Origin: Bacteroidales bacterium
GTDB taxonomy: Bacteria; Bacteroidota; Bacteroidia; Bacteroidales; FEN-979
Assembly (NCBI GenBank): GCA_025355465.1
Contig: JANXZO010000057.1
Span: forward strand, 1-46,227
DNA: 46,227 nt
Direction: 5' to 3'
Shown piece after piece: positions 1 through 46,023 of the stretch. Under the pieces are notes generated by a model. It was given only the letters and a program-made list of their open reading frames with translations. It did not search any database and had not been told where the DNA came from. The position numbers and the translations under genes were made by a program. Within the stretch, counting starts at the first letter, position 1. Each line of letters opens with the position of its first letter.

Positions 1-188
1 TTCTCCACAACCGACGAATGATATGCAAACCCGTCTACCGCCGATTTATTGAACGGCGGCATATCCATGTCCGAAAAAATGTCCTCAGCAAGTACCCTGT
101 TCAAAGCCAGGTGCATGGATACCCGGTCGATTCCCGATGGAACCGAGTTGGAAATTACAATATTATAAGCCTCTTCAAAAGAGATCAT
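1..188 (-). CDS. moeA: Molybdopterin molybdenumtransferase MoeA, N-terminal fragment (cut by window edge)
   Basis: MoeA inserts molybdate (or tungstate) into adenylylated molybdopterin, the last step of Moco synthesis in the cytoplasm. Reading the minus strand from an ATG at 188-186 gives about 62 residues starting MISFEEAYNIV, with the family motif MPPFNKSAVDGFA near residues 43-55 (family consensus MPPFDxSAMDGYA). The rest lies beyond position 1. It starts 19 bases after the stop of the modE-like gene on the same strand, so the two are probably co-transcribed. The motif is distinctive, so the family call is firm; the C-terminal domains cannot be seen here. Confidence 0.9.
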   Translation of the reverse strand, partial: MISFEEAYNIVISNSVPSGIDRVSMHLALNRVLAEDIFSDMDMPPFNKSAVDGFAYHSSVVE

Positions 189-207
189 TTTTTACTCCTG
201 AAAGTGA

Positions 208-585
208 CTATTTCTTAAGTTCCTTAATGAATTCGTCAAATCCTGCATTTATTGTTTCATCCACGGTTTTGTGAAAGGCATCAAATGCCCTGACGAGCTG
301 CCGTCCTTCTTCCGTCAGCACTGTTTTACCTCCATCAGCTCCTCCCCGGTAGGTTTCCAGCAGCGGGAATCCGAAAAATTTTTCGATTTTCCGAAGGTTT
401 CCCCACGTTCGCCGGTAGGTATAGCCCATTTCGTCGCAGGCTGCTTTGAGTGAGCCTTTTTCATCGATTAACTTCAGCATTTGCCATTTTCCATCGCCGA
501 GGATCCCTGCCTCCTTCTCGTCCGACATCCAGATCTTGTAATGAAGCCTGATGTCAGTAAGTTTGTTGGTGAATTTTGTCTCCAT
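208..585 (-). CDS. modE: ModE-family molybdenum-responsive transcriptional regulator (HTH only)
   Basis: ModE-type regulators sense molybdate and control molybdate uptake and molybdoenzyme genes. The protein has the ModE N-terminal winged HTH signature: a KIWM start, ILGDGKWQMLKLIDEKGSLKAA, the recognition helix MGYTYRRTWGNL, and a wing containing RGGADGGKTVLTEEG. At about 125 residues it lacks the C-terminal TOBE/Mop molybdate-binding domains of E. coli ModE, as is common for short ModE homologues. The reading frame is open to an ATG at 654, but the extra 23 residues are encoded by a tandem repeat and overlap a likely -7 box (652-659), so I chose the ATG at 585. It leads into moeA on the same strand. 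Confidence 0.85.
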   Translation of the reverse strand: METKFTNKLTDIRLHYKIWMSDEKEAGILGDGKWQMLKLIDEKGSLKAACDEMGYTYRRTWGNLRKIEKFFGFPLLETYRGGADGGKTVLTEEGRQLVRAFDAFHKTVDETINAGFDEFIKELKK

Positions 586-591
586 AAAAAA

Positions 592-623
592 ATAGCGAAA
601 TGGTGAGATAGCGAAATGGTGAA
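592..623. repeat. Tandem repeat, 2 x 16 bp (four 8-bp units) in the modE leader
   Basis: The 16-mer ATAGCGAAATGGTGAG occurs at 592-607 and again at 608-623 with one change. It reads as alternating octamers ATAGCGAA and ATGGTGAG. It sits directly upstream of the chosen modE start. The ATGGTG core matches the array at 3975-4014. Confidence 0.8.
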
Positions 624-651
624 AATTTTGTGTCTTTGTGCTGTCTTCATG

Positions 652-659
652 CAAAATTA
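652..659 (-). promoter_or_regulatory. Candidate -7 box for modE-moeA
   Basis: CAAAATTA on the plus strand is TAATTTTG on the minus strand and fits the Bacteroidota -7 consensus TAnnTTTG. No good -33 TTG lies 17-23 bases upstream. If real, transcription would start near 645, which rules out the upstream ATG at 654 as the modE start. Confidence 0.45.
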
Positions 660-712
660 GTACTTTTCACGTTATGTCCGGAATAGCATATCCGGGTGTC
701 CATAATTATTTC

Positions 713-720
713 TATTTTTG
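713..720 (+). promoter_or_regulatory. Candidate -7 box for the MFS gene
   Basis: TATTTTTG matches TAnnTTTG, 52 bases before the ATG at 773. No clear -33 element was found. Confidence 0.4.
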
Positions 721-772
721 TCTTTCAATTTAGACAGAATATAAATAACATTAAACAATATGGGGCTCGGTT

Positions 773-2012
773 ATGTCTGACAAAGCAAAAAATACGCAAA
801 TACTTGTCCTGTTATTTTTCGGTGTGCTGATGGGGGCGCTCGACATTTCAATTGTCGGACATTTATGGAAGACGCTGGATATATGTAATTTCCGTTGCTG
901 TGTTCGGACTGGGGTCCGGGGTGGTTTCGCTTTCTCACGATATAACCTTGCTGCTGATTGGTCGTGCCATTCAGGGATTCGGAAGCAGTGGTATTTTCCC
1001 GGTGGCCTCTGCCACCATTGGCGATGTTTTTCCTGTCGAAAAGCGTGGAAGGGCTTTGGGTCTGATCGGGGCTGTTTTTGGCATCGCTTTTATTGTCGGG
1101 CCATTTATTGCCGGATTTGTCCTGTTATATTTTGACTGGAATGCGCTATTCCTTGTCAACCTCCCGATCGCTGCAGCGTTGATTGTTTTTGCCTCCCGGA
1201 TGCTTCCCGGAAAAACGGCTGCAAAAAAGCCACTGATCGACTGGATCGGAATTTTATTGATGGCAGTTGTATTGACGAGCTTTACACTGGCCATAAATAA
1301 TATGGATGTCCGGCACCTGGGGGTAAGTTTGGGTGCCTTGTCGGTATTACCGTTTCTACTGTTGGTCTTGATACTTACCCCCATCCTGGTCATGTTTGAA
1401 AAGTCCCGGCGGGATGCCATAATTAACACAAAGCTCTTCCGCTCAACCCAGGTCAGGCTGGTTGGGTTTATTGCCTTTGGTTTGGGGATTTTTCAATCCA
1501 GTATTGTGTTTCTTCCGAAACTGGCGGTTGATCTCTTCGGTGTACGCCCTTCGAAGGCAAGTTTCATGTTGCTTCCGCTGGTGGCGGCCACTACTGTAGG
1601 TTCTCCGCTGAGCGGGAGGTTACTTGATAAGCTGGGATCGAAAATCGTGGTGGTTTCAGGACTTATTATTGCTTCGGCAGCCCTGTTTCTTTTCAGCCTG
1701 GTTTCGCAGAACCTGATCTTGTTTTATGCAGCCGAGGCTGGTCTGGGATTTGGCCTGGCCATGCGGGCTTCGCTTAATTACATCATGCTCAATGAAGTGG
1801 TATCGCAAGACCGTGCCTCAACCCAGGGGATGCTTATCATATTTATCGCTATCGGACAACTAACCGGTGCCGCGTTGATTGGGTCCATCGCCTCCGGAAC
1901 TCCGGGCAGTACCGCCGGCTTTGGGCATGCATTTCTTTTCATGACAGCCCTTTCTATCCTGCTTGTGGCATTGGCTTTCTTCCTGAAGAGCCGGAAAAAT
2001 GAGCTGAGCTGA
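773..2012 (+). pseudogene. MFS drug exporter (DHA2/EmrB-like), disrupted by an internal out-of-frame deletion
   Basis: The gene starts at ATG 773 with a typical first transmembrane helix ending GALDISIVG (residues 21-29). In an intact MFS exporter about 40 residues (end of loop, TM2) should precede the motif-A sequence MSDIYGRRW. Here that motif follows immediately but in another frame, reached only from a TTG at 852. The frame from 773 then continues as nonsense to 1135, while the second frame runs through 386 good residues with many hydrophobic helices to 2012. The joint carries the shared hexamer GTCGGA, expected at both deletion ends. The gene is very likely non-functional. An assembly error is possible but would have to remove more than 100 bases. 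Confidence 0.8.
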
Positions 2013-2021
2013 TTTGGCAAT

Positions 2022-2053
2022 AAATGCACGAATGCACGAATGCACGAATCCAC
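2022..2053. repeat. Octamer array (R)AATGCAC x4
   Basis: Units AAATGCAC, GAATGCAC, GAATGCAC, GAATCCAC run without gaps from 2022 to 2053, starting 9 bases after the MFS stop codon. The same octamer recurs five times inside the RNA methyltransferase gene at 26063-26102. Confidence 0.9.
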
Positions 2054-2150
2054 GAAATTGTAAAGATTTTAGGTGCCGGATGCCAGAAAACTTCTTTTTA
2101 ATTTAGAATAAAACTAAATAAATATTATCTTTACACCGGTAAAGTACACT

Positions 2151-2171
2151 CCCTCCCCTCTCAGGGGAGGG
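2151..2171. repeat. GC-rich hairpin within a G/C-tract intergenic element
   Basis: CCCTCCCC (2151-2158) and GGGGAGGG (2164-2171) form a perfect 8-bp stem with a 5-base loop. It is followed to about 2240 by G-rich sequence with an imperfect repeat of AAGGCCGGGG (2201 and 2224). The stem is not followed by a T-tract, so I do not call it a terminator. It looks like a dispersed intergenic palindromic element. Confidence 0.55.
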
Positions 2172-2278
2172 CTGGGGAGGGGTAAAAAACCCGGAAGGCC
2201 GGGGTGGGGTAAGACACCACGTAAGGCCGGGGAGAGGATATTAGGAGGGTTTGGGAAGCATCCTTCGATATGTCGTAA

Positions 2279-2309
2279 TTTGCATATCGAAAATTATCAC
2301 CTAATTTTG
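2279..2309 (+). promoter_or_regulatory. Promoter of pruA
   Basis: TTTG (2279-2282), a 19-base spacer and TAATTTTG (2302-2309) fit the Bacteroidota sigma-ABfr promoter. The start codon lies at 2331, giving a short leader. Confidence 0.7.
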
Positions 2310-2330
2310 CAGTGCTAAAAAATACTTATC

Positions 2331-3971
2331 ATGAATAACGCCTTGTTTAACATTGAGCGTCCGCAAAATGAACATACGCTGAGTTATGCGCCCGGATGCA
2401 AGGAGAGAAAATCGTTAAATGCCGAATTGGACCGATTGAGTTCCGAGGTTCAGGATATTCCGCTGATCATTGGCGGAAAGGAGGTTCGCACAGGCAAGAT
2501 GGGAAAGGTGGTAATGCCCCATGATCACCATCATGTGCTGGCGAACTATCATATGGCTGGTGAGGCTGAAGTGAACATGGCTATCGAAGCTGCGCTCAGT
2601 GCGCACAGAGAATGGGAATCCTTTCCCTGGGTCGACAGGGTATCAATAACTTTGAAAGCCGCCGAACTACTTTCAAAAAAGTACCGGTTCCTACTCAACG
2701 CAGCTACGATGCTCGGGCAGGACAAAAGCGCTTTTCAGGCAGAGATTGATGCTGCCTGCGAAACGATCGACTTTCTCAACTTCAACGCCCACTTCATTTC
2801 GGAGATATACAAAGAGCAGCCCCATTCACAGCCGGGTATCATAAACCGAATTGAATACCGGCCGCTGGAGGGTTTTGTTTTCACAGTTTCACCTTTTAAC
2901 TTTACCGCCATTGCTTCCAACCTCAACATGGCCCCTGCCCTTATGGGTAATACCACTGTTTGGAAACCTGCCACTACCTCCTTGCTTTCAAATTACTTTC
3001 TCATGAATGTTTTTAAAGAAGCCGGACTTCCCGACGGGGTTATTAACTTTATTCCAGGTTCTGGCAGCATGATTGGTAAAACCGTGATGGGACATCGTGA
3101 CCTCACCGGAATTCACTTCACCGGCTCCAACAGCACCTTTAACAGTCTGTGGTCGATGGCGGCACAGAACATGGCCTCCTACCGGACCTATCCGCGTATC
3201 GTTGGCGAAACTGGCGGAAAAGATTTCATTTTCGTGCATCCCTCCTCCGACCCCCAGCAGGTGTCGGTGGCCATTGTGCGTGGAGCCTTCGAGTACCAGG
3301 GACAAAAATGTTCCGCTGCCTCCCGTGCCTATGTTCCCGAGTCGATGTGGCCAGAGGTGAAAACACGCATCGGCGATATGATCTCACAGATCACCGTGGG
3401 CGATGTGCGCGAATTCAGTCATTTTATGAATGCGGTCATTGATGAAGCCTCTTTCGACAACATCATGGGTTATATCGAATATGCAAAGAGATCAGCCGAT
3501 GCCGAAGTGATTTATGGAGGTATTGGTGACAAATCTGTCGGATATTTCGTTCAACCTACCGTGATCAAAACCACCAATCCCCATTTTAAAACCATGGAGG
3601 AGGAAATCTTTGGCCCCGTGATGACAATTTATGTTTATAAGGACAAAGAGTTCGAAGAGACGCTGCGCATCTGCGACCAAACTTCTCCCTACGGACTTAC
3701 AGGATCAGTGTTCTCGAAAGACCGCGAGGCGATCAACACCGCCTGCCGCATCCTTCGCTATGCAGCCGGGAACTTCTACTTCAACGACAAGCCCTCCGGA
3801 GCTGTGGTTGGGCAGCAGCCCTTCGGGGGTGCCCGCGGATCGGGAACGAACGACAAATCAGGGAGTCACCTCAACCTCCTCCGCTGGACCAACCCCCGCA
3901 CCATCAAGGAGACCCTGATCCCCCCGACCGAGTTTACCTATCCCTACATGAAAGTGGATAAGTGCCACTAA
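2331..3971 (+). CDS. pruA: L-glutamate gamma-semialdehyde (1-pyrroline-5-carboxylate) dehydrogenase
   Basis: This NAD-dependent cytoplasmic enzyme oxidises glutamate semialdehyde to glutamate, the second step of proline breakdown. At 546 residues it matches the stand-alone P5CDH family. The aldehyde dehydrogenase signatures are present: the cofactor-domain stretch VWKPATTSLLSNY, FTGSNSTFNSLW, general base E293 in GETGGKD, nucleophile C327 in QGQKCSAASR, and EEIFGPV near the C-terminus. The N-terminal segment lacks a proline dehydrogenase domain, so it is not a PutA fusion. It has its own promoter and no co-directional neighbour; the gene beyond is convergent. The family is very well conserved, so the call is firm. 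Confidence 0.95.
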   Translation: MNNALFNIERPQNEHTLSYAPGCKERKSLNAELDRLSSEVQDIPLIIGGKEVRTGKMGKVVMPHDHHHVLANYHMAGEAEVNMAIEAALSAHREWESFPWVDRVSITLKAAELLSKKYRFLLNAATMLGQDKSAFQAEIDAACETIDFLNFNAHFISEIYKEQPHSQPGIINRIEYRPLEGFVFTVSPFNFTAIASNLNMAPALMGNTTVWKPATTSLLSNYFLMNVFKEAGLPDGVINFIPGSGSMIGKTVMGHRDLTGIHFTGSNSTFNSLWSMAAQNMASYRTYPRIVGETGGKDFIFVHPSSDPQQVSVAIVRGAFEYQGQKCSAASRAYVPESMWPEVKTRIGDMISQITVGDVREFSHFMNAVIDEASFDNIMGYIEYAKRSADAEVIYGGIGDKSVGYFVQPTVIKTTNPHFKTMEEEIFGPVMTIYVYKDKEFEETLRICDQTSPYGLTGSVFSKDREAINTACRILRYAAGNFYFNDKPSGAVVGQQPFGGARGSGTNDKSGSHLNLLRWTNPRTIKETLIPPTEFTYPYMKVDKCH

Positions 3972-3974
3972 GAG

Positions 3975-4014
3975 AAATGGTGAAATGGTGAAATGGTGAG
4001 ATGGTGAATCGGTA
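3975..4014. repeat. Octamer array AAATGGTG x5 filling the pruA/Rieske gap
   Basis: Three perfect AAATGGTG units (3975-3998), AGATGGTG (3999-4006) and a decayed AATCGGTA (4007-4014) fill almost the whole 45-base gap between the pruA stop codon and the convergent Rieske gene stop codon. Confidence 0.85.
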
Positions 4015-4016
4015 AA

Positions 4017-5009
4017 TCAGCCTTTTTTCAATTCCTCCCGCATTTTCCGGTATAGCACGATCGGGTAGTCTCCTGAGATCAGGTTTTCATCCATTCTCAA
4101 TGAGGTAGATTGTGGCTGGTGAGTCTCCACCACCCTTCTGTCCTGGTGAAGAACAATGCGGTTATAGCGTTTGGTCAGGAAGAAATAGAGATCTTTCAGC
4201 AGGGGAAGTTTTACCATTTTCTGGTAGGTGCGCAGGTAAAATATCGTATGGTTTTCGTCAACCGGAACGAAGGCCACGATGATCCGCATCGAGTCCATGA
4301 TATGATTCTCCCACAAATTGGGGAAGATAAAAGTCAGGTAGGTTGACTTGTCAGGCTTGGTCATTTTGGCCGGTGGAATAGGCGTCTGTCCCATGTCCTG
4401 TTCATTGAAGGGCCAGAAGGAGAGGCTGTTTCCGTTGATCTCCGTATAGGGACCATTCACCACAGGACCGATTCCCCGGCCGATCGTCGTGCGATGGATA
4501 AAAGGCACATGAACCACGTCGAGTTGGTTTTCGATCGCCCGCGAATAGTGACATTTCCACGTTTCCGTGAAACCCTTCCACACCAGATCCTCCCCCAGGT
4601 CGTTAAACCATGGCACTGCATCTGTTGGCACGCTCGGTCCGGTCATTCCGTCAACTTTGTGGTGTTCCGTCCACCAGAGGTAGATGAACCCGTATTCTTC
4701 CTTTATGGGATAGGCACCTGCATGAATGTGTTCAGGAACCGCCGAAGCCCTGCCATTGGCGGGAATCAGCTTGCAAGCCCCCGAGGGATCGTATTCAAAC
4801 CCATGGAAAGGGCACTGGAGGTGGAGGTTGACCATTTTACCCTTGCTGAGCGCGATTCCGCGATGCGGACATTTATCGAGTGCTGCGCCGATCCGGCCGC
4901 TGCTGTCGCGCCACACCACGAGGTTCACCCCCAAGCGCCGCACTCCGATCACCTTATTTATTCCGACCTCTTTTGAGTCGAGAATAACATACCATTGGTT
5001 AGGGATCAT
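4017..5009 (-). CDS. Rieske [2Fe-2S] non-heme iron oxygenase
   Basis: This is an oxygenase alpha-subunit-like protein of 330 residues with both iron sites. The N-terminal Rieske domain has C47-P-H49 and C66-P-F-H69 (CxH-x16-CxxH). The catalytic domain has the mononuclear iron motif N161-xx-D164-xx-H167-xxxx-H172 inside ENQLDVVHVPFIH. The architecture resembles vanillate demethylase or pheophorbide-a-oxygenase-like monooxygenases, which take electrons from a separate reductase. No reductase lies next to it, so the substrate is unknown. An O2-dependent enzyme is notable beside an AOR, which is normally an anaerobic enzyme. A heptamer repeat array lies directly upstream of its ATG. Confidence 0.85.
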   Translation of the reverse strand: MIPNQWYVILDSKEVGINKVIGVRRLGVNLVVWRDSSGRIGAALDKCPHRGIALSKGKMVNLHLQCPFHGFEYDPSGACKLIPANGRASAVPEHIHAGAYPIKEEYGFIYLWWTEHHKVDGMTGPSVPTDAVPWFNDLGEDLVWKGFTETWKCHYSRAIENQLDVVHVPFIHRTTIGRGIGPVVNGPYTEINGNSLSFWPFNEQDMGQTPIPPAKMTKPDKSTYLTFIFPNLWENHIMDSMRIIVAFVPVDENHTIFYLRTYQKMVKLPLLKDLYFFLTKRYNRIVLHQDRRVVETHQPQSTSLRMDENLISGDYPIVLYRKMREELKKG

Positions 5010-5012
5010 AGG

Positions 5013-5054
5013 CTAAATGATAATTGACAATGGATAATTGAAAATTGAAATTCG
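5013..5054. repeat. Heptamer array (consensus ATAATTG) upstream of the Rieske gene
   Basis: Six 7-base units run CTAAATG, ATAATTG, ACAATGG, ATAATTG, AAAATTG, AAATTCG. The 12-mer AATTGACAATGG (5022-5033) is repeated exactly at 24459-24470 across the end of ispF. Confidence 0.75.
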
Positions 5055-5098
5055 TATTACTTTCACCTTCTCACGCGTCACGTGTCTCGATTTCCACC

Positions 5099-5725
5099 TC
5101 AATTGATCAGTTCGAACGCTACCTTTTCTTTATTGTACCCGAAAATCTCACCGGTCTCGATAATGTAATGCCAGCCAAGGAGGTTCAGTGTACCGGCAAG
5201 ATATCTCTCTTTGATATAGGGATAGGTGAGCAGGTGTTTGAGTTGTTCCACCACATTCATCTGTTCGGTGAGCCACTCACGGGCCTCTCTGTCGCGGTCG
5301 TCGGGAAAGATGTTCTTTACCCGCTCCATCACGGGATGGGAGAGCTCAAGCCATTTTTTAGTATGGGGTATATGCTTCAGCTCCTCATCGGATTTGAAAA
5401 GTGCGGCACATCCCCCGCAGTTGGAGTGGCCGCAAACAACGATGTTGTCGACCTTGAGGGACTGCACAGCATATTCGATGGCAGATGTAATCCCCAGAAA
5501 TCCTCCGGTTTCCTGGTAAACGGGAACGATGTTGGCCACATTCCTGACCACGAAGATCTCGCCGGGCAGCGTTTTCGTAATGAAGTTGGGAACCAGCCTG
5601 GAATCCGAACAACCGATAAAGAGGGTATGGGGATTCTGGCCGTCCTGGATATTCCGGAAAAGCTCCTTGTGCGTTTCAAAATCGTTCTTGCGGAATTCAA
5701 CAATGCCCCTGATCAGGTTTTCCAT
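5099..5725 (-). CDS. can: Beta-class carbonic anhydrase
   Basis: This zinc enzyme interconverts CO2 and bicarbonate in the cytoplasm. The 208 residues carry the full beta-CA active site: zinc ligands C39, H100 and C103, with the C39-S-D41-S-R43 dyad and the GHSNCGGC motif at 99-106. The length is typical for the bacterial family. It starts 23 bases after the AOR stop on the same strand, so the two genes probably form one operon. This suggests the AOR reaction or its pathway releases or uses CO2/bicarbonate, which is an inference from position only. Confidence 0.93.
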   Translation of the reverse strand: MENLIRGIVEFRKNDFETHKELFRNIQDGQNPHTLFIGCSDSRLVPNFITKTLPGEIFVVRNVANIVPVYQETGGFLGITSAIEYAVQSLKVDNIVVCGHSNCGGCAALFKSDEELKHIPHTKKWLELSHPVMERVKNIFPDDRDREAREWLTEQMNVVEQLKHLLTYPYIKERYLAGTLNLLGWHYIIETGEIFGYNKEKVAFELIN

Positions 5726-5748
5726 CTTTGGTGAGATGTTGGTGTCTG

Positions 5749-7908
5749 CTACTGCAATGGTGTCACAACCTCCAGGAGCTCCGGCAGGTCCATACCGATT
5801 TTTTTCAGGTGTTCGATCTTCGGTACCCCGTTTTTGGTCCAGCCGCGGCGCTCGTAAACGGCATCGAGCAGCTGTTCGTAACGGTTTTCGCGGTATGCAC
5901 GCAGGGCTTTCATCTTTTCTTCGGTAGACTTGCCCTCGGGATCGAAGCTCACAAGTTCGAGCAATTGTTTATCGTACCGTTCTGCGCGGGACTCATACTC
6001 CTCTTTGGTCACAGGGCCGCAGGCCCGGTAGGGTTGCGCATCGTGAATCCGGAGTCCCTTGCCACGGCGGATGTTGAAGATACGCTGGAAATTATAGACC
6101 CGTTCCGACATCCGGATGATCTCATGTTTGTCGATACTTGCACCGGTCACAGCATTGAAGATGGTTACATAGTTATCTACGTGCTGTGGAACCTTGGCTG
6201 GCTCAGCAGTTTGGGCATTGTCCTCGGGTTCTACATCGTTCCAGGGTAGTTTGCAGAATCCCGCAAGTCCGAACCAGGTACGGAACATCGGGAAATAGTG
6301 AAGTGCTTCGGCCTTCTTTTCAAATGTGGGGATCTGGTTGTTTACCATGTCCATGAAGATGAGCCAGGCTTCGTCGTGCTGGGGCCCTTTGTTGGTCATG
6401 GCATAACCGCCCTGCTGAGCCAGCGACTCCTTCGAAACATACTGTGAATACTCAAGACCTTTGTTCTCCATGCCGATATCCTGCATGAAGGCTGCATCGC
6501 CCCAGCCGTTGGCTGCAAAGAGCCCTTTCATTTTACGAACTCCAAGGCCTGCAATTACCCCAAATCCCTCGCCGCGTGAAAGCTGGTGCAGCAGTTCCAT
6601 AGCCGCATCTGCATTCCCGAAGTTGAGCCTGAGTCCGCCGGTGCGCTCCTCATTCAGGATACCGTTTTCGTAACACTCCATTACAAAGCCGAGGATGCTG
6701 CCCCAGCTGATGGTGCAGATGCCGTAAGTATCGCAATAAAAGTTGGCCTCGATGGTGAAGTCGGGGTTGAAAATGCCTGCTATTGAGCCCAGGGAAGAGG
6801 TTGTTTCATATTCGGGACCGTCGACAATGACTTTGTCTCCTTTGTAAGGTCCTGAGCGGAGTTCGTAATTGTCGACCCCTTTCGCGCAGGCCATGTTGCA
6901 CCCTACCCAGCAGCCGTCGGGAACACCTTGGGTAAAGTAGGATTTCCAAACGTCGCCACTGATCTTGGTGGCATCAGGATGACTTCCGAATTTGAAATTG
7001 TTGACCGGGAGGAGGTCGTAGTCGTTCATTACAAGGGTAAGATGTGCAGTGCCTTTGGAGCGCATTTCGCACTGCTTGTCATCGAGGTTGCGCATCTCCT
7101 TGTTAAAGGTCCGGCCGCGCTCCTGGATGGCCTCCATATTGGCGACATTGTTACGGTTTCCGCCGATGGTTTTTACATGGGCCACCACAGCCTTGATCTT
7201 TTTGTCGCGGAGCACGGTGCCGATTCCTCCGCGGCCGGCCTGTTTCAGCCTCACCTTCTTGCGTTTGATGTCGTAGAAGCTGAAGTTTAGCATCCCGATG
7301 AGGGAGTGCTCGGCAGCAGTTCCGGCAGAAACCACAGACACATTATATTTGTCCTTTTCATTTCCGGGATCGGCCAGCATGTCGTGCAGCTCCTCCGCCA
7401 GCACATGGCTGTCGGACGGCAGGTCGCCGGCTTCGTAAACCTCGATCACTTCACGTGCTTCGTCGAAAAGTACCATCACTTCCTGGTCAGATTTTCCCTG
7501 GATCTCCAAAGCATCGAATCCGCAAAATTTGAGGAAGGGTCCGAAAAAGCCGCCTACATTCGAGTCTACCACAATGTCGGTTTGCGGGCTGATGGCGCAA
7601 CAGATGGCTTTCCCCGAGCCAGAATACTGCGTAATGCCGCAGCAGGGTCCGCCGGAAATGACAATCTCGTTTTCGGGGTCGTTCCATTGGGTGTCGGGTT
7701 TGGTTGCATTCCAAAGAAGCCGCAGGTCAAACCCTTTCCCACCGATAAATTTATCCTTCATCAGCTGGGTAACCGGTTTTTCGCGGATGGTCAGGTCTCC
7801 AACATTAATATAGATACTGCGGTTATTGTAACCTTTGTCGATCGGGGCCCACGTATATTTGTACCGGGTAAGCAGTTTGTGGCTTTGTTTGAAGTCTTCG
7901 AATGTCAT
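5749..7908 (-). CDS. aor: Aldehyde:ferredoxin oxidoreductase (tungsten/molybdenum pterin enzyme)
   Basis: AOR-family enzymes oxidise aldehydes (or reduce acids) using a bis-pterin W or Mo centre and a [4Fe-4S] cluster, with ferredoxin as partner. The 719-residue protein has the N-terminal pterin-binding domain (FIGGKGFDLRLLW, SGGPCCGITQYSGSGK, GGFFGPFLKFCGFDALEI) and R(A)GRGGIGTVLRDKKIKAV. Cluster ligands are C333, C337, C341 and C552 (DGCWVGCNMAC; GLAGFCKLPW). The first three show CxxxCxxxC spacing rather than the classical CxxCxxxC. It heads a two-gene operon with a beta-carbonic anhydrase and lies divergent from thiF/thiS-like genes. modE and moeA are nearby. The physiological substrate cannot be read from sequence; the length is somewhat above the ~600 residues of archaeal AOR. 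Confidence 0.9.
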   Translation of the reverse strand: MTFEDFKQSHKLLTRYKYTWAPIDKGYNNRSIYINVGDLTIREKPVTQLMKDKFIGGKGFDLRLLWNATKPDTQWNDPENEIVISGGPCCGITQYSGSGKAICCAISPQTDIVVDSNVGGFFGPFLKFCGFDALEIQGKSDQEVMVLFDEAREVIEVYEAGDLPSDSHVLAEELHDMLADPGNEKDKYNVSVVSAGTAAEHSLIGMLNFSFYDIKRKKVRLKQAGRGGIGTVLRDKKIKAVVAHVKTIGGNRNNVANMEAIQERGRTFNKEMRNLDDKQCEMRSKGTAHLTLVMNDYDLLPVNNFKFGSHPDATKISGDVWKSYFTQGVPDGCWVGCNMACAKGVDNYELRSGPYKGDKVIVDGPEYETTSSLGSIAGIFNPDFTIEANFYCDTYGICTISWGSILGFVMECYENGILNEERTGGLRLNFGNADAAMELLHQLSRGEGFGVIAGLGVRKMKGLFAANGWGDAAFMQDIGMENKGLEYSQYVSKESLAQQGGYAMTNKGPQHDEAWLIFMDMVNNQIPTFEKKAEALHYFPMFRTWFGLAGFCKLPWNDVEPEDNAQTAEPAKVPQHVDNYVTIFNAVTGASIDKHEIIRMSERVYNFQRIFNIRRGKGLRIHDAQPYRACGPVTKEEYESRAERYDKQLLELVSFDPEGKSTEEKMKALRAYRENRYEQLLDAVYERRGWTKNGVPKIEHLKKIGMDLPELLEVVTPLQ

Positions 7909-7995
7909 AGGGATAAGATTTAATTCAAATTACGATTGCCATGATTTCAGTTGCAAAACAATATCTTGTTAAATTTTTAACGATACAAAAATAAG

Positions 7996-8028
7996 CAAAA
8001 ATACGGGGATAAATCCGCGTCAATCAAA
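7996..8028 (-). promoter_or_regulatory. Promoter of the AOR-carbonic anhydrase operon
   Basis: On the minus strand TATTTTTG (8003-7996) is preceded by TTTG (8028-8025, 21-base spacer) or TTG (8023-8021, 17-base spacer). A second TATTTTTG lies at 7993-7986 without a matching -33. The 233-base divergent gap (7909-8141) shows no other clear element. Confidence 0.5.
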
Positions 8029-8074
8029 AACTTCGATGTGTTATTTTTAGCATATCGACAGGCCAGACAGGCGG

Positions 8075-8103
8075 CTTGAATTGTCATTTATTTGTTATTT
8101 TTG
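8075..8103 (+). promoter_or_regulatory. Promoter of the thiF/thiS-like pair
   Basis: CTTG (8075-8078), a 17-base spacer and TATTTTTG (8096-8103) fit the Bacteroidota promoter, 38 bases before the ATG at 8142. Confidence 0.55.
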
Positions 8104-8141
8104 CAGGTAAGGTATAGGTAAATTATTACGAATCGAGAACC

Positions 8142-8720
8142 ATGACATCTGAGCAGATCAAAGAGATCCTTAAGACAAAAAAAGTTGGCATTGCCGGCTG
8201 TGGCGGACTAGGATCAAACTGTGCTGCAGCCCTGGTCAGGGCCGGGGTGGTTAACCTTGTTATCGTGGATTTTGATGTGGTAGAGGAGTCGAATCTGAAC
8301 CGTCAGTTTTACTTTTTCGACCAGGTGGGATTGAAAAAATCTCCCACACTGAAGGAAAATCTTTTGCGGATCAATCGCGGCCTGGATATCACAGTCCACG
8401 ACCTCCGGGTAACAACCGGTAACGTTGAGTCGTTGTTCGGTTCGTGCGACGTGCTGGTAGAGGCTTTCGACTTGGCCGACCAGAAGGCCATGCTGATCGA
8501 GACGGTCCTGGACCGTATGCCGGAAATGCCGCTGGTGGTAGGGTTGGGGCTGGCCGGTTGGGGGAGAAATGAGATGATCCATTACCGCAGAATGGGCAAC
8601 ATATATATCTGCGGCGACGAAATATCGGAAGTAACTGAAGAACTACCGCCCTTGGCTCCGCGGGTTGGTATTGTAGCCTGTATGCAGGCAAATACGGTGG
8701 TGGAGATACTTTTGAAATAG
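8142..8720 (+). CDS. thiF: ThiF/MoeB-family adenylyltransferase, short form
   Basis: E1-like enzymes of this family adenylate the C-terminal Gly-Gly of a ubiquitin-like sulfur carrier. The 192 residues hold the Rossmann core: GIAGCGGLGSN nucleotide loop (residues 17-27), VDFDVVEESNLNRQ with the conserved Asp and Arg, and a later D in VEAFDLADQKA. The C-terminal zinc CxxC pairs and rhodanese domain of MoeB/MoeZ are absent, which matches short ThiF homologues sometimes called family 2. The stop lies 6 bases before the thiS-like start, so enzyme and carrier are made together. The pair could act in thiamine synthesis, but divergence from the AOR suggests tungstopterin or molybdopterin synthesis. 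Sequence alone does not decide. Confidence 0.82.
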   Translation: MTSEQIKEILKTKKVGIAGCGGLGSNCAAALVRAGVVNLVIVDFDVVEESNLNRQFYFFDQVGLKKSPTLKENLLRINRGLDITVHDLRVTTGNVESLFGSCDVLVEAFDLADQKAMLIETVLDRMPEMPLVVGLGLAGWGRNEMIHYRRMGNIYICGDEISEVTEELPPLAPRVGIVACMQANTVVEILLK

Positions 8721-8726
8721 CGAAAA

Positions 8727-8930
8727 ATGAAAATAACCCTGAACAACAATTTTGCAAAGTTTACCCAGGAGACGCTTACGGTGAGGGAACTTCTACAGGA
8801 GCGCAATTATACCTTTAAGATGCTCGTCATCAAAATTAACGGAGTTCTGGTGAAAAAAGCCGATTACGATACGGCTTTAGTGAAGGATGGCGACGATGTG
8901 ACCGTGCTGCATCTGATCTCGGGAGGCTAA
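8727..8930 (+). CDS. thiS: ThiS/MoaD-like ubiquitin-fold sulfur carrier
   Basis: The 67-residue protein has the length and pattern of the beta-grasp sulfur carriers and ends in the obligatory Gly-Gly (HLISGG), the site of adenylation and thiocarboxylate formation. The stretch VKDGDDVTVLHLISGG is typical of the ThiS/MoaD C-terminus. It lies 6 bases after the thiF-like gene. No other thi genes (thiG, thiH, thiC) and no moaE are visible near it, so it may be a carrier dedicated to AOR cofactor assembly; this is inference. Confidence 0.82.
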   Translation: MKITLNNNFAKFTQETLTVRELLQERNYTFKMLVIKINGVLVKKADYDTALVKDGDDVTVLHLISGG

Positions 8931-8944
8931 AATGAAATGGCGGT

Positions 8945-10243
8945 TTATACCACCTCGGCGACGATAAACGTACTTCCTCCCACAAACACAAGATCCTCCG
9001 GCGAAGCGGCACTCCGGGCAGCCTCCAGCGCGGTTTTCACCGAATTATAGTGATCTCCTTCCATCCCTTCGGTTCGAGCCAGTGATTGCAATTCCGCGGC
9101 ATCCAATCCGCGGGGAATATCTGCTTTACAGAAGTAGTAAGTGGCATCTTTGGGCAGCAGTTTGAGGATGGCTGTGATCGACTTGTCATTAACCACGCCG
9201 AATACAAAATGGAGCCGTTGATGGGGAGTTTGATCGATCTGCTGCAGAACTTCGCCGATACCTGCCTCATTGTGACCGGTATCGCAGATGGTGAGAGGAT
9301 CTGTTCCAAGGAGTTGCCAACGGCCGGCCAAACCAGTGTTGATTGTCACATCACGTATCCCGGCACGGATTGAAGAGGGCGATATCTGTAAGCCCTCACC
9401 GTTGAGCTGTTCGCAGGCTGCAATGGCGGTAATGATGTTTTTCTGCTGATAGTTGCCGGCGAGCGGAGAGACCAGCCTCTTCAGGAAAGGTACATCCTGG
9501 CGGCAGATATCCATCACCAGTTGTTTCGGATGGTTTGTGGTGTGCTGTATGTTTTTTGCATGAAACAGCTTGTCGGCAAAAGTGATTCTGTTTCCTTTGG
9601 CCATCGCCGTCCGGATAAAGACACTGTCAATCCCGGGCTGAGTTTCGCCAATCAGAACCGGGACGTCGCGCTTGATGATCCCTGCCTTTTCGGCTGCGAT
9701 CTTCTCCAGGGTATCGCCCAGCAGCTGCATATGGTCAAAACTTATGTTGGTAATCACCGAAAGGAGCGGGGTTATGATGTTGGTGGAGTCGAGCCTCCCT
9801 CCGAGTCCGACTTCGATGACGGCAATGTCAACCTTTTGTCTCCTGAAATAGTCAAATGTCAGCCCCACGGTCATTTCGAAAAAGGAGGGGCGGATGACTT
9901 CGAAGTCACTGCGGTATCTGTTCACAAAGCCGGTCACCTCATCTTCGCCGACCATCTGCCCGTTGACCCGGATCCGCTCGCGGAAATCTTTCAAATGCGG
10001 TGAGGTGTAGAGTCCGGTTTTAAGTCCGCACGCCTGCAAAATGGAGGCCAGCATGTGGGAGACGGAACCCTTTCCGTTGGTGCCGGCCACATGAACAGTG
10101 GGGAAAAAGTTTTGTGGATTGCCCAGCAAATTGCACAGTGCTATTGTGTTTTCAAGATCGGCCTTGTAGGCAGCCACTCCGATGCGCTGGTACATCGGCA
10201 GCTGCGCATAAAGATAGTCCAGTGTTTCCTGATAACCAATCAT
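8945..10243 (-). CDS. folC: Bifunctional folylpolyglutamate synthase/dihydrofolate synthase
   Basis: FolC joins glutamate to dihydropteroate and adds polyglutamate tails to folates using ATP, in the cytoplasm. The 432 residues carry the Mur-ligase-like P-loop HVAGTNGKGS (residues 51-60), the TSPHLKDFRERI motif, EVGLGGRLDSTN and DHMQLLGDTLEKIAAEKAGI. The C-terminal domain has GRWQ and DTGHNEAG. It is the last gene of a minus-strand run, 53 bases after anmK, and its stop faces the thiS-like gene with only a 14-base gap and no evident hairpin. Confidence 0.95.
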   Translation of the reverse strand: MIGYQETLDYLYAQLPMYQRIGVAAYKADLENTIALCNLLGNPQNFFPTVHVAGTNGKGSVSHMLASILQACGLKTGLYTSPHLKDFRERIRVNGQMVGEDEVTGFVNRYRSDFEVIRPSFFEMTVGLTFDYFRRQKVDIAVIEVGLGGRLDSTNIITPLLSVITNISFDHMQLLGDTLEKIAAEKAGIIKRDVPVLIGETQPGIDSVFIRTAMAKGNRITFADKLFHAKNIQHTTNHPKQLVMDICRQDVPFLKRLVSPLAGNYQQKNIITAIAACEQLNGEGLQISPSSIRAGIRDVTINTGLAGRWQLLGTDPLTICDTGHNEAGIGEVLQQIDQTPHQRLHFVFGVVNDKSITAILKLLPKDATYYFCKADIPRGLDAAELQSLARTEGMEGDHYNSVKTALEAARSAASPEDLVFVGGSTFIVAEVV

Positions 10244-10296
10244 TTCAAAAAAGGAAAGTCAATAGCGATTGTAGCGCTAATTTACTCAATTTTTAT

Positions 10297-11349
10297 TCAC
10301 GGGCTGAAAATCGACCCGCCGCAGTTGTCGGCGGAGGCTCCGGTTACGGCGCTGAGGCAGTTGTTCTCACCCCGCCAGCGAAGAAGTCCGAGGAAGGCGA
10401 AGATGAGCGCCTCCTTGAAATCGACAGTAGCCGGATCGGGAATGATGATACCGGATTGCGCATGGTTTGCGATCCGTTCAATCAGGAATGCATTGTGCGC
10501 TCCGCCGCCTGTTACGAGAATTTTCTTCTCCGGGTTTGTGCCGGCGTTGGCAGCGACCTGCAGGGCGATGTGTTCACAAAATGTTGCCAGCAGGTCGTTG
10601 ATACCTTCCGGGTATTTTGCAAGCAGGGGATGGATGTTTTCGATGACCCACTCTTTACCGAGCGATTTCGGAGGCCGTTGCGAATAGTATGAAAGGTCAT
10701 TCAGCTCTTTCAGCAGTCCGGGCAGAATCTGACCGCTTCGGGCAAGGTTTCCGTTGTGATCGTAAGGTCTTCCGGATTTTTGAGAAAGCAGGTTGAGAAC
10801 GATATTGGCGGGACAAAGGTCAAATGCGATCCTCTTTCCCTCTTTCTCCATTGAAATGTTGGCAAACCCGCCCAGATTGAGGCAATAGTCGTATTGACCG
10901 AACAGCAGTTTGTCGCCGACCGGCACCAGTGGAGCCCCCTGTCCGCCGAGGGCCACATCCAGCGACCGGAAATCGCAGACGACCGGAAACCCTGTTTCCG
11001 CTGCAATGGCCGAACCCCGGCCGATCTGACAGGTGATCTTTTTAGCCGGCTGGTGAAACACCGTATGGCCGTGTGAGGCAATGAAGTCGGGACGGATTTG
11101 ATGTGTTTCAATAAAACCACGGGTGAGTCTGCCAAGGAGGTGCCCGTATTCGATGTCGGTTTGCACAAACTCCAGCGCCGTGCTGTTCTCCACCTCTGCC
11201 AGCCGGACTCTCCAATCATCAGAATAGACAACGGTTTCGGCATGAAGGATCGTATAATTCCAACATCCTTCGTTCAATTCAAATCTGCACGCTGCGATAT
11301 CGAGTCCATCGAGCGAAGTACCCGACATTAAGCCAATTATGATTCCCAT
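10297..11349 (-). CDS. anmK: Anhydro-N-acetylmuramic acid kinase
   Basis: AnmK hydrolyses and phosphorylates 1,6-anhydro-MurNAc to MurNAc-6-phosphate during peptidoglycan recycling. The 350 residues begin with the family signature GLMSGTSLDGLDIA (residues 6-19) and contain SHGHTVFHQP, GQGAPLVPVGD and the C-terminal nucleotide motif VTGGGAHNAFL. The segment usually written FDTGPGN reads FDLCPAN. I believe this is a Bacteroidota-type variation and not a defect, but I cannot confirm it here. It lies 19 bases after murF, which links cell-wall recycling with cell-wall synthesis in one transcript. Confidence 0.93.
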   Translation of the reverse strand: MGIIIGLMSGTSLDGLDIAACRFELNEGCWNYTILHAETVVYSDDWRVRLAEVENSTALEFVQTDIEYGHLLGRLTRGFIETHQIRPDFIASHGHTVFHQPAKKITCQIGRGSAIAAETGFPVVCDFRSLDVALGGQGAPLVPVGDKLLFGQYDYCLNLGGFANISMEKEGKRIAFDLCPANIVLNLLSQKSGRPYDHNGNLARSGQILPGLLKELNDLSYYSQRPPKSLGKEWVIENIHPLLAKYPEGINDLLATFCEHIALQVAANAGTNPEKKILVTGGGAHNAFLIERIANHAQSGIIIPDPATVDFKEALIFAFLGLLRWRGENNCLSAVTGASADNCGGSIFSP

Positions 11350-11368
11350 GATTTTCGATTTACGATGA

Positions 11369-12664
11369 TCAGAGTTTCTCCATTACCGTCTCCAGCCTGA
11401 TACCTCTCGATCCTTTAATGAGGATGGTACAACCCTCGATGGGGTGGTGTGTGAACCAGATGGCAGCCAGATCGCTGTCGTCAAAACAGTGATTCTCACG
11501 GTGTGTATTGAGGCGTGTGAAAACTGGACCCACAAGGTATACCTCTGAGAATTTCTTTCCGGCAACAAATTCAAGAAGCCGGAGGTGTTCTGAATCGGTC
11601 TCTTCGCCAAGTTCACGCATGTCGCCCAGAATTACCACTTTGTTTTCATAGCTGGTTAATGAAAAGGTGGTGATGGCTGCTTCCATGCTACTGGGGTTGG
11701 CATTGTAAGCATCCATGATCAGCAGGTTTGAAGTGGTTTTTAGGATTTGCGACCGGTTGTTTGACGGTTCAAAGGACTCAATTGCTTCGACGATCTTTTC
11801 GGATTCCACGCCGAAATGTTCCCCAATACAGGCAGCTGCAAGAATATTCTGTGCATTGTACCCTCCGTATAATTTGGATTTAATGAAGTAAGCCGCACAA
11901 GCTTCGGTGCTCAGTTCCATCTCTACAAAAGGGTTGGCACTAACCGAATTCATCGATACCATGGCGGGAGGTTTTCCATAGGTGATGGCCGGGATTCCGG
12001 CCGCATGTTTCATGAGCAGGGGGTTGTCCTTGTTTACCACCAGTGTACCACCATTGTCACGGATATAGCGGTAGAGCTCCGTCTTTGTGCGAATCACCCC
12101 GTCATATCCGCCAAAACCTTCGAGATGCGCTTTGCCGATGTTTGTAATGAGCCCATAGTCTGGCTCGGCCAAACGACACAGGAAATCGATCTCTCCGGGG
12201 TGATTGGCTCCCATTTCAATGATGGCAATCTCTGTTTCGCGGTTAATGGCAAGCAGTGTCAGCGGTACCCCGATATGGTTATTTAGATTACCCTGGGTTG
12301 CCGTGGTCCGGAATTTTTTCGACAGCACCGCATTGATAAGTTCTTTGCTGGTAGTTTTACCGTTCGTTCCGGTGATGGCGATCACAATGACAGCTGATTG
12401 CCGGTGGTGGTGGTGTGCGAGTTTCTGCAGGGTTTCCAGAACATTTTCGACGACCAGGAACCGGGGGTCGGAAGGAATCTGTTCCTCATCAATAACGGCG
12501 AATGCTGCGCCCTGGCTGAGGGCTTGGCGGGCAAAGAGGTTGCCATTAAAATTTTCACCCTTCAGGGCAAAAAAAAGACAACCGGGAGGGATCTTCCGGC
12601 TGTCAGTTGAGATTACAGGATGTTCCTGGAATTTCGAATAAATCGATTCCTGGCTGATGATCAT
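11369..12664 (-). CDS. murF: UDP-N-acetylmuramoyl-tripeptide--D-alanyl-D-alanine ligase
   Basis: MurF adds D-Ala-D-Ala to the UDP-MurNAc tripeptide, the last cytoplasmic step of the peptidoglycan precursor. The 431 residues show the Mur ligase P-loop VIAITGTNGKTTSKEL, the EMGANHPGEIDFL motif, NIGKAHLEGFGG and DAYNANPSSMEAA with the C-terminal domain VILGDMRELGEE. Its ATG overlaps the gldJ stop by four bases (12661-12664), a sign of translational coupling with a gliding/T9SS lipoprotein gene. Confidence 0.95.
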   Translation of the reverse strand: MIISQESIYSKFQEHPVISTDSRKIPPGCLFFALKGENFNGNLFARQALSQGAAFAVIDEEQIPSDPRFLVVENVLETLQKLAHHHHRQSAVIVIAITGTNGKTTSKELINAVLSKKFRTTATQGNLNNHIGVPLTLLAINRETEIAIIEMGANHPGEIDFLCRLAEPDYGLITNIGKAHLEGFGGYDGVIRTKTELYRYIRDNGGTLVVNKDNPLLMKHAAGIPAITYGKPPAMVSMNSVSANPFVEMELSTEACAAYFIKSKLYGGYNAQNILAAACIGEHFGVESEKIVEAIESFEPSNNRSQILKTTSNLLIMDAYNANPSSMEAAITTFSLTSYENKVVILGDMRELGEETDSEHLRLLEFVAGKKFSEVYLVGPVFTRLNTHRENHCFDDSDLAAIWFTHHPIEGCTILIKGSRGIRLETVMEKL

Positions 12665-44863: not shown

Positions 44864-44883
44864 GTGTCATGTCAAATTAATAT
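44864..44883. repeat. IS630 left inverted repeat
   Basis: The left terminus starts GTGTCATGTCAAATTAAT and matches the inward-read right terminus with a few differences. The preceding TA is the target duplication. Confidence 0.85.
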
Positions 44884-44920
44884 ATTAACATTATCTTTGT
44901 GGGATAAAAACCACAGAGCT

Positions 44921-45358
44921 ATGACAAAGGTAGTATTAAAATTAAAATCAAAAGAACGAGATTTTCTCAATAACTTGACAAAGACGGGCAACCGTAATTC
45001 CCGGGAATTTGAACGAGCTTATATTCTGCTGGCACTGGATAAAGGCAAGAAACACGAGGAGATATCAGAGTTCTACAACGTGAGCAGAATTACGATATGG
45101 CGAGTAAAAAACAAGTATTTTGAGTCTGGGGTTGAAGAAGCCATTAAAGATGAACCACGACCAGGACAACCAATTAAGTACACGGAAACTGACAACGCCG
45201 AAATCATTGCAATGGCTTGTTCAAAAGCACCAGATGGACGAGCCCGATGGACGATACGCCTACTTGAAAAGACTTTGAAAGAACAGAAGGGGATGGAGTC
45301 AATCAATCGTGAAACAATCCGGTTGTTGCTAAAAAAAACGAATGTAAGCCTTGGTTGA
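44921..45358 (+). CDS. IS630 transposase, first frame (DNA-binding part)
   Basis: From ATG 44921 the 145 residues form the N-terminal HTH region: HEEISEFYNVSRITIWRVKNKYFESGVEEAI, DEPRPGQPIKY, SKAPDGRARWTIRLLEKTL and INRETIRLLLKK. It binds the IS ends. At 45331-45338 a run of eight A follows CT. Slipping back one base here joins the frame to the second part, so LLLKK continues as NECKPWLKKMWCITE. Without the slip the frame ends at 45358. Confidence 0.88.
   Translation: MTKVVLKLKSKERDFLNNLTKTGNRNSREFERAYILLALDKGKKHEEISEFYNVSRITIWRVKNKYFESGVEEAIKDEPRPGQPIKYTETDNAEIIAMACSKAPDGRARWTIRLLEKTLKEQKGMESINRETIRLLLKKTNVSLG
45331..45338 (+). other. A8 slippery site for -1 frameshifting in the IS630 transposase
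   Basis: Eight consecutive A bases lie in the overlap of the two transposase frames. Frame one reads CTA AAA AAA ACG; a -1 slip gives CTA AAA AAA AAC GAA TGT and the conserved continuation KPW..WCI. Confidence 0.75.
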
Positions 45359-46023
45359 AAAAAATGTGGTGCATAACGGAAATCACACAGGAATACAGAA
45401 AGCGCATGTACCGATTGCTTAACTTGTATCATAAACCATATAATCCTGCAATACCTGTGGTGTGTTTTGACGAAAAGAGTAAGCAACTATTGGAAGACTC
45501 CCGAACCCCTATTCCTATGAAACCTGGCCAGGCTAAAAAATACGATTATGAATACCGGCGAAAGGGAACATGCAACATATTTGTCGCAGTTGAACCAAAG
45601 GCAGGAAAGCATTTTATCAAAGTCACCGACCAGCGCACCCGAAAAGACTTTGCCGTATTCATGAAATGGTTGATCGACAAGAAATACAAGCAGGCAAAGA
45701 AAGTCATGATAGTCTTGGACAATTTAAACACCCACTTTCAAAAATCCTTTTATGAAACCTTTTCACTTCAGGAATGTGATCGGTTATTGAAAAAAATCAA
45801 ATTTGTTTACACACCCAAACACGCGAGTTGGCTAAACATGGCTGAGATCGAAATAAATTTACTGGACCATGAATGTCTTGATAGAAATATCGGAAATCGA
45901 AATGAACTTGAAAGACAGACCCTTGTTTGGTGTAATGCGAACAATGCAGATAAAAGAAAAATCAATTGGAGTTTTACACGATATAAAGCAGATAAAAAAC
46001 TATCCAATTATTACGTTTCATAA
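45355..46023 (+). CDS. IS630 transposase, second frame (DDE catalytic part)
   Basis: The 222 residues hold the DDE triad: D in VVCFDEKS, D in VMIVLDNLNTHF and E in WLNMAEIEINLL. The surrounding patterns PGQAKKYDYEYRRKGT, KHASWLNMAE and RNIGNRNEL are typical of IS630 transposases. Its own ATG (45355-45357 region) is probably not the true start; the part is made as a fusion after the -1 frameshift. No internal stop or deletion is seen, so the element may be active. Confidence 0.88.
   Translation: MKKMWCITEITQEYRKRMYRLLNLYHKPYNPAIPVVCFDEKSKQLLEDSRTPIPMKPGQAKKYDYEYRRKGTCNIFVAVEPKAGKHFIKVTDQRTRKDFAVFMKWLIDKKYKQAKKVMIVLDNLNTHFQKSFYETFSLQECDRLLKKIKFVYTPKHASWLNMAEIEINLLDHECLDRNIGNRNELERQTLVWCNANNADKRKINWSFTRYKADKKLSNYYVS

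Follow-up and report, generated by a model that had tools for sequence, protein, structure and literature searches.

What is the task of a short E1-like adenylyltransferase of the ThiF family and of a ThiS-like sulfur carrier when the two are encoded divergently from an aldehyde oxidoreductase (AOR)? The question is raised by positions 5,099–8,930 of the window, which is the entire contig JANXZO010000057.1 (C28; 46,227 bases) of a Bacteroidales bacterium (GenBank assembly GCA_025355465.1) whose genome is a 3.54-Mb draft of 75 contigs, 98.77% complete. The initial annotation had placed AOR, a beta-carbonic anhydrase (CA) and a divergent ThiF/ThiS pair here, as is borne out by the open reading frames (ORFs) and by Pfam and NCBIfam. 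The answer favoured, and on balance considered probable as a whole, is that a supercluster for synthesis of the tungsten cofactor has its AOR end here, with the order ThiS–ThiF / AOR–CA–Rieske ... ModE–MoeA / MoaA–MoaC–MOSC/MogA. Judged from sequence comparison, the MOSC domain encoded at its far end may well take the place of MoaE, the catalytic subunit of the MoaD/MoaE molybdopterin synthase.

ThiF and ThiS: thiamine or pterin cofactor

Enzymes of the ThiF family adenylate ThiS, and sulfur is placed on its C-terminal glycine. A search of the whole genome gave a single ThiS-family match (PF02597) and a single ThiF-family match (PF00899), and both are the proteins of the window, while no ThiG scored over the cut-off (the best match reached 21.3 bits across 54 positions; cut-off 23). 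On these counts the usual role in thiazole formation is unlikely. The pair had been proposed to be dedicated to the oxidoreductase, and that idea holds on this gene content, which at the same time contradicts the possibility, raised with it, that the pair serves thiamine synthesis only.

Relatives show the same pattern. For an order census 295 genomes were sampled from Bacteroidales, and 104 of them carry the AOR of the window (AOR1: best stretch about 58% or more identical, fragments counted), with a distant AOR only in 9 more. ThiG was counted as strong only at E ≤ 1e-29, which holds for 80 genomes; any match over the Pfam cut-off is found in 205 of the 295, many of these being partial (30–48 bits among the matches listed). 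Strong ThiG is absent from 76 of the 84 genomes that have AOR1 and MoaC without MoaE, and ThiS is kept in 74 of those 76. The Gly-Gly C-terminus is present in all 41 of the ThiS relatives that score above 50 bits. Counts of AOR loci were made on the best 80 of at least 557 AOR relatives; the survey for ThiF, over a range of 3.5 kb, took in 72 loci whose upstream sequence is 1.3 kb or longer (in some barely longer), and a divergent ThiF ORF lies within that distance of AOR in 43, with ThiS as well in 38. The linkage is thus not confined to the genome in which it was first noticed.

That this is an ordinary thiazole-synthesis pair, standing beside AOR by chance, is very improbable. ThiF and ThiS do both pass the NCBIfam cut-offs for thiamine families, and strong ThiG occurs in 8 of the 84 genomes just mentioned; but the other 76, nearly all with ThiS retained, the lack of ThiG here and the recurrence of ThiF at so many AOR loci speak against it, and a thiamine role was rejected on the missing ThiG, 76 of 84 relatives being alike. 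A Gly-Gly carrier and an E1 enzyme, as canonical molybdopterin synthesis has them, are both found, with the carrier scoring as ThiS and not as MoaD. ThiF and ThiS very probably serve the tungsten/molybdenum pterin cofactor rather than thiamine.

Absence of MoaE

MoaA and MoaC are present in the genome. MoaE gave no match in the assembly at E ≤ 0.001, and relaxing the threshold to E ≤ 10 added just one 12-bit scrap containing a stop (E 0.5). Across the 295 genomes of the census, MoaC was found in 127 and MoaE in 19, the two together in 17, so that 110 have MoaC without MoaE. The 104 AOR1 genomes include 95 with MoaC and 11 with MoaE, and 84 of the 95 are in the state of MoaC without MoaE. In the stretches fetched around MoaE, it adjoins MoaD and often MobA.

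Could MoaE exist in the organism and have dropped out of the assembly? The genome is a draft in many contigs and slightly short of complete, and for another genome of the census (G251, 91% complete), which has MogA without MOSC and no MoaE, a gap of this kind is plausible. Against it stands the same absence in 84 of 95 genomes with AOR1 and MoaC: when 30 of them, each at least 92% complete, were searched at E ≤ 10, MoaE exceeded the cut-off in none, with scraps of 11–16 bits in 8. Loss in assembly is therefore extremely improbable as the explanation. A short MoaA (about 266 residues) was considered as a marker of MoaE loss and discarded, as genomes with MoaE show equal length.

MOSC–MogA and its exclusion of MoaE

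The first 13 bases of contig C10 are identical to the end of the window contig, and C10 begins with the remainder of MoeA, followed by MoaA, MoaC and a fusion of an N-terminal MOSC domain (PF03473, 43.6 bits, cut-off 22.7) to a C-terminal MogA. The MOSC half alone was used as query against the 295 genomes, with E ≤ 1e-16 as the main threshold. A match was found in 105 of the 110 genomes with MoaC and without MoaE, in none of the 17 with both, and in 3 of the 168 without MoaC. For the two classes with MoaC, Fisher's test gives p 5e-17, uncorrected for kinship. The stretches around MoaC agree, with a MOSC–MogA fusion ORF in 74 of the 110 MoaE-less genomes and in none of the 17 with MoaE; these 17 have MogA without MOSC in 11 cases (in one fused to MoaC) and no MogA in 6. 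Five MoaE-less loci were labelled by script as having MogA alone. Two of these are in fact fused (G283, G240), a third is divided between two ORFs (G097) and a fourth is truncated by the start of its contig (G163), so that G251 alone stands as MogA without MOSC. Three families (f43, f90 and f112) each contain both the MOSC and the MoaE state.

Four genomes with MoaE (G022, G136, G233, G294) have MoeA, MoaA, MoaC and MogA in a row with no MOSC. In G294, WtpABC, AOR, ThiF and ThiS stand beside the row, its MogA has the MogA domain only in Pfam, and MoaD and MoaE are on another contig. The MoaC–MogA fusion, beside MoaE and MoaD, is at 9397–10329 of L160 (G279).

An alignment of 79 MOSC sequences (above 100 bits and 125 residues) has K19, R43, K103 and H106 invariant, and C105, C110 and C119 each in 75. 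A model of the MOSC–MogA protein of a relative, L035, has a mean predicted local distance difference test score (pLDDT) of 79; its MOSC half matches YuaD (1oru; Z 16.0, root mean square deviation (rmsd) 2.3 Å, 136 residues) and its MogA half Cnx1G (1o8o; Z 22.6, rmsd 2.2, 160 residues). MoaE is absent among the fold matches of the whole model, which proves nothing, the list having been filled by MogA. By sequence, MOSC comes nearest among solved chains to YiiM, without significance (E 0.097).

In 20 MoaE-less regions, the only genes near-constant beside MoaC are MoeA, MoaA and MOSC–MogA; genes for transport, ModE and PruA are less frequent there. A conserved extra gene beside MoaC as substitute for MoaE was thus looked for and none near-constant was seen, with the limit that clustering at 1e-8 may miss fast-evolving genes.

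Some genomes have two MOSC copies, of which the first occupies a short frame and the second, which is divergent, a frame of MogA-fusion length: L138 (G283), G067, G099, G145, G204, G240, G265, G284 and G288. Dehalobacter strains also have two MOSC proteins, according to the accessible part of PMC4751268.

Weighing the replacement

Several observations weigh against a replacement of MoaE by MOSC, or against the role given to the ThiF/ThiS pair in it. The exclusion is imperfect at its edges: weak MOSC matches at E ≤ 0.001 occur in 2 of the 17 genomes with both MoaC and MoaE (G085 and G279; 34% and 30% identity), and five genomes with MoaC and without MoaE lack MOSC at E ≤ 1e-16 (G026, G051, G058, G192 and G251), G051 having a match at 1.3e-14. 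In the L035 model the loop 104–120 is of low confidence and poorly ordered. Directly after or beside MOSC–MogA there is a gene for an HD-domain protein in 7 of the 20 MoaE-less regions and in none of 20 stretches from genomes with MoaE. No divergent ThiF is found within 3.5 kb in 29 of the 72 AOR loci surveyed, and several of these 29 are very closely related to the window.

The trees add few independent events. A tree of MoeA, MoaA and MoaC together (96 of 127 rows, 8 of them with MoaE; rows with fewer than two of the three genes excluded, and L160 left out, its fused MoaC being in a different cluster) has 4 swaps, but supported branches compel only 2 of them, a number that cannot carry a sign test. 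The poorly resolved tree of MoaC alone (126 rows) has 9 changes, with 2 pairs on supported branches. In both analyses G051 was counted as MOSC-bearing. In the tree pairs MOSC and MoaE changed oppositely or did not differ, and never changed in the same direction. The support thus extends to just 2 swaps between MOSC and MoaE that are independent, or 4 at best.

A further misfit concerns the carrier. Neither ThiS nor strong ThiG is present in 13 of the 26 genomes that have MoaC but lack both MoaE and this AOR (G002, G051, G076, G125, G163, G169, G174, G197, G223, G238, G247, G252 and G276). All 13 have a MOSC match, 12 at E ≤ 1e-16 and one weak, and for this reason ThiS may be dispensable to the MOSC route in some cases: either a divergent carrier has been missed, or MOSC gets its sulfur otherwise. 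Near MoaC of G197 (L192) there are a distant AOR and an ORF of the ThiF family that is longer.

The five exceptions without MOSC were also considered as cases in which MoaE was lost in assembly from beside a second carrier, an explanation that does not hold for G026 and lacks proof in the others. Strong ThiG is present in G026 and G192, and the second ThiS of G026 is about 4 kb from ThiG.

Last, because MoaD and often MobA accompany MoaE in the stretches fetched, the exclusion could be a sign of molybdenum use, and since molybdenum enzymes are where MOSC domains are found elsewhere, MOSC here could be a carrier or an enzyme. These points lead to an alternative in which the ThiF/ThiS pair supplies cofactor sulfur and an unrecognised protein replaces MoaE, MOSC–MogA being a carrier or a MOSC oxidoreductase of tungsten-only cells. 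In its favour, molybdoenzymes, mARC among them, belong to the MOSC superfamily (PMC10637980, in its accessible part), the similarity to YiiM is not significant, MOSC may track the choice of metal and not MoaE, and the HD-domain gene is a recurrent neighbour. It fits less well with the near-constancy beside MoaC of MoeA, MoaA and MOSC–MogA alone, or with the rows without MOSC described above for G022, G136, G233 and G294, four of the MoaE-bearing genomes that keep this AOR (11 of 17), and on these grounds it is a rather unlikely alternative.

A proposed route for sulfur

From the mutual exclusion of MOSC and MoaE we infer that the MOSC domain may act as a molybdopterin synthase, converting cyclic pyranopterin monophosphate (cPMP) to molybdopterin with sulfur from the carrier. 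On this proposal ThiF would adenylate the C-terminus of ThiS and then load it with sulfur, and the resulting ThiS thiocarboxylate would go into dithiolene formation on the cPMP made by MoaA and MoaC, not into thiazole. The MOSC domain would hold cPMP and catalyse the transfer of sulfur in place of MoaE, the fused MogA would receive and adenylate molybdopterin, and MoeA would insert tungsten for AOR. CA and the Rieske protein would be lineage-specific passengers of the AOR operon.

Taken further, and with the chances about even, MOSC would be a second, unrelated kind of molybdopterin synthase, supplied with sulfur by the ThiF/ThiS pair linked to AOR or, in part of the genomes, through its three cysteines from another source, and handing its product to MogA within one protein. 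This would be the prevailing route in the order, with MoaE the exception.

The aldehyde oxidoreductase

By family, the AOR of the window is predicted to be a tungstopyranopterin aldehyde oxidoreductase. Its likeness to solved AORs is only distant (PfAOR, 1aor; E 7e-47), and the protein scores far under the cut-offs of the NCBIfam AOR models that it matches, because of which it looks like an uncharacterised branch of the AORs. Its residues E368, Y490 and H511 align with the active-site residues Glu313, Tyr427 and His448 of PfAOR and are identical in 80 of 80 relatives, as are the presumed cluster cysteines C333, C337, C341 and C552, which align with the cluster region of PfAOR. The spacing of the first three is CX3CX3C, as against CX2CX3C in PfAOR. 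Functional roles for the three PfAOR residues are given in the accessible part of PMC13328260. As in Class I tungsten-containing oxidoreductases (WORs), for which WorX is optional, no small subunit adjoins; the neighbours are CA, Rieske, ThiF and ThiS.

The nearest AOR relatives, 85–93% identical, come from records whose titles, with few exceptions, give Bacteroidales, Bacteroidetes or Bacteroidota; several are from Lac Pavin. One record titled Alphaproteobacteria (L047, SACF01000023.1) has a Bacteroidales-type AOR locus with an 89% identical AOR and the same neighbours; its title or its bin is probably wrong. A tandem pair of AOR ORFs with ThiS in between is found at L071:1045–5872.

Carbonic anhydrase and Rieske oxygenase

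CA had been put forward as a linked partner of AOR, the two together with CO2/bicarbonate balance forming one unit, and no conserved role of this kind was seen. CA of the window type is beside AOR in 2 of the 80 related loci (L039 and L044). In each the Rieske gene is the next one after CA, and between CA and AOR of L039 there is a further ORF. A Rieske gene is near AOR in 6 of the 80, in 4 without window-type CA. The motifs CSDSR and HSNC of the window CA correspond to the zinc-site motifs CxDxR and HxxC of beta-CAs.

Some observations do favour a joint role of CA and AOR in CO2/bicarbonate balance. The gap between the two genes here is 23 bases, and two other beta-CA types are close to AOR (L067:9176–9871, Pro_CA 184 bits; L070:8138–8872, 146 bits), which makes three apparently different types near AOR in 4 of 80 loci, more than the expectation guessed, not computed, for genomes with one or two CAs. 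In the remaining 76 loci, some of which end early at contig ends, no CA was found; the attachment of the window type is to Rieske, with an intervening ORF in L039, and Rieske recurs without it; and the oxidation of aldehydes, by established chemistry, uses no CO2. A joint function is highly doubtful, and CA as a conserved AOR partner was set aside as unsupported. CA and Rieske are taken to be a local, lineage-specific addition to the AOR operon, with a small doubt remaining because three CA types turned up near AOR.

Layout of the locus and its neighbours

The features are collected in Table 1. ThiF and ThiS are 6 bases apart. The Rieske gene is on the CA strand, 89 bases after CA, which makes AOR–CA–Rieske the likely operon. 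A search for riboswitches in window positions 1–12000 gave no Rfam match at gathering thresholds. The genes modE and moeA had been described as nearby, and both are at the left end of the contig, moeA as its N-terminal part only. The description of the region as a self-contained unit was too strong: MoaA, MoaC and MOSC–MogA are beyond the contig end and no MoaE was found in the assembly. In relative L035 the order is continuous, ThiS–ThiF / AOR–Rieske ... ModE–MoeA–MoaA–MoaC–MOSC/MogA, all within 14 kb. WtpABC-like transport genes, so named by sequence likeness, follow ModE in some other relatives.

Between AOR and ModE there is a gene for a PruA-type L-glutamate gamma-semialdehyde dehydrogenase, and in 23 of the 80 related loci AOR has a PruA-like ORF no further than about 6 kb away; a link to the substrate of AOR is possible from this neighbourhood. 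The gene of an MFS transporter has its N-terminus and its remainder in different frames and looks broken or cut, the main ORF having 386 amino acids as against 484–490 codons for the frames in L036, L041 and L074. The transposase ORFs at the right contig end are presumably IS630-like.

Table 1. Features of the locus, of its continuation on contig C10 and of related regions (window positions unless a locus is named)
Feature	Position	Strand	Basis or remark
MoeA, N-terminal part, ~62 residues	1–188	−	open frame like the N-terminus of L035 MoeA; contig end cuts the gene
MoeA, remainder	L131:3–1028, start of contig C10		Pfam MoeA_N, MoCF_biosynth, MoeA_C
ModE-type one-domain regulator	208–654	−	NCBIfam ModE_repress 73.3 bits, under cut-off 98.5; Pfam HTH_1
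MFS transporter gene	773–2012	+	
PruA-type dehydrogenase	2331–3971	+	
Rieske oxygenase (Rieske + VanA_C)	4017–5009	−	Pfam; last gene of the likely operon
Beta-carbonic anhydrase	5099–5725	−	Pfam Pro_CA 165 bits; CSDSR and HSNC motifs
AOR/WOR large subunit, Class I-like	5749–7908	−	Pfam AFOR_N 146 bits, AFOR_C 322 bits
Divergent intergenic region, 233 bases	7909–8141		between AOR and ThiF
Short ThiF/E1-like adenylyltransferase	8142–8720	+	above NCBIfam PRK08644 and thiF_fam2 cut-offs
ThiS-like (WorX-like) sulfur carrier	8727–8930	+	Pfam ThiS; above NCBIfam thiS cut-off; Gly-Gly end
Transposase ORFs (HTH, DDE_3)	44864–46023	+	
HD-domain gene of MoaE-less regions	L136:11278–11859; also L138, L139, L140, L142, L143, L150		

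Known systems and what the locus may mean

A ThiF/ThiS-like pair beside AOR is already known. Class I WORs with WorX and thiF, such as CsWOR87, have been predicted to use them for pterin synthesis, and the exact function of the ThiS-like WorX is called unknown (PMC13328260, in its accessible part). The window resembles these in having a large AOR subunit without a small one beside a ThiS-like protein and ThiF. Unlike the CsWOR87 type, it has ThiF and ThiS in divergent orientation, and neither a second carrier nor MoaE was matched in the genome. The main text of PMC13328260 contains none of the terms MoaE, MoaD, Bacteroid- and carbonic anhydrase. AOR-linked MoaD and MoeB have been predicted to be a sulfur supply for the tungsten cofactor (PMC1779556). 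As far as the accessible text of that paper goes, the carrier is likewise always an immediate neighbour of AOR, frequently accompanied by the E1 enzyme; but there it is MoaD, with MoaE an occasional neighbour, whereas the one in the window is a ThiS by score, and the genome yielded no MoaE.

The closest precedent for MOSC is Dehalobacter, in which MoaD and MoaE were not found and the MOSC proteins of the cofactor cluster were suggested as possible substitutes for molybdopterin synthase (PMC4751268, accessible part, where Anantharaman and Aravind 2002 are also cited for the prediction that MOSC carries sulfur). A MOSC protein in a cofactor cluster where the synthase is not found is common to both; unlike the present case, Dehalobacter is of another phylum, MoaD too was not found and the cited part gives no survey of exclusion, while here there is a MOSC–MogA fusion together with a ThiF/ThiS pair. 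For Dielma fastidiosa, the accessible part of PMC6147048 lists MoaA, MoaC, MoeA, MoeB, MogA, one MOSC and one AOR, and not MoaD or MoaE. In the same source Zhang and co-workers scored the pathway as present with at least one of moaD, moaE and moeB, and with such scoring by any one gene of the second step a missing MoaE would go unseen. The canonical MoaD/MoaE system with MoeB has in common with the window an E1-like enzyme and a Gly-Gly carrier, and differs in MoaE, not found here; the thiazole system ThiF/ThiS/ThiG shares the ThiF and ThiS families and differs in ThiG, of which none is over cut-off here. In the literature searched, which lacks most subscription journals, a replacement of MoaE by MOSC is in print only for Dehalobacter and no biochemistry of such a replacement was found. 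As far as that search reached, what is new is the wide absence of MoaE in the order and its exclusion with a MOSC often fused to MogA, as well as the link of this state, MOSC without MoaE, to ThiF and ThiS on the AOR side.

The MoaD/MoaE molybdopterin synthase is commonly drawn as a fixed step in the synthesis of the molybdenum and tungsten cofactors. If MoaE is indeed missing from the majority of Bacteroidales that have this AOR, and these carry a MOSC domain by which it is excluded, this essential enzyme may have been replaced. If that is true, one group of MOSC domains, and the ThiS-like WorX proteins with them, would have a defined job.

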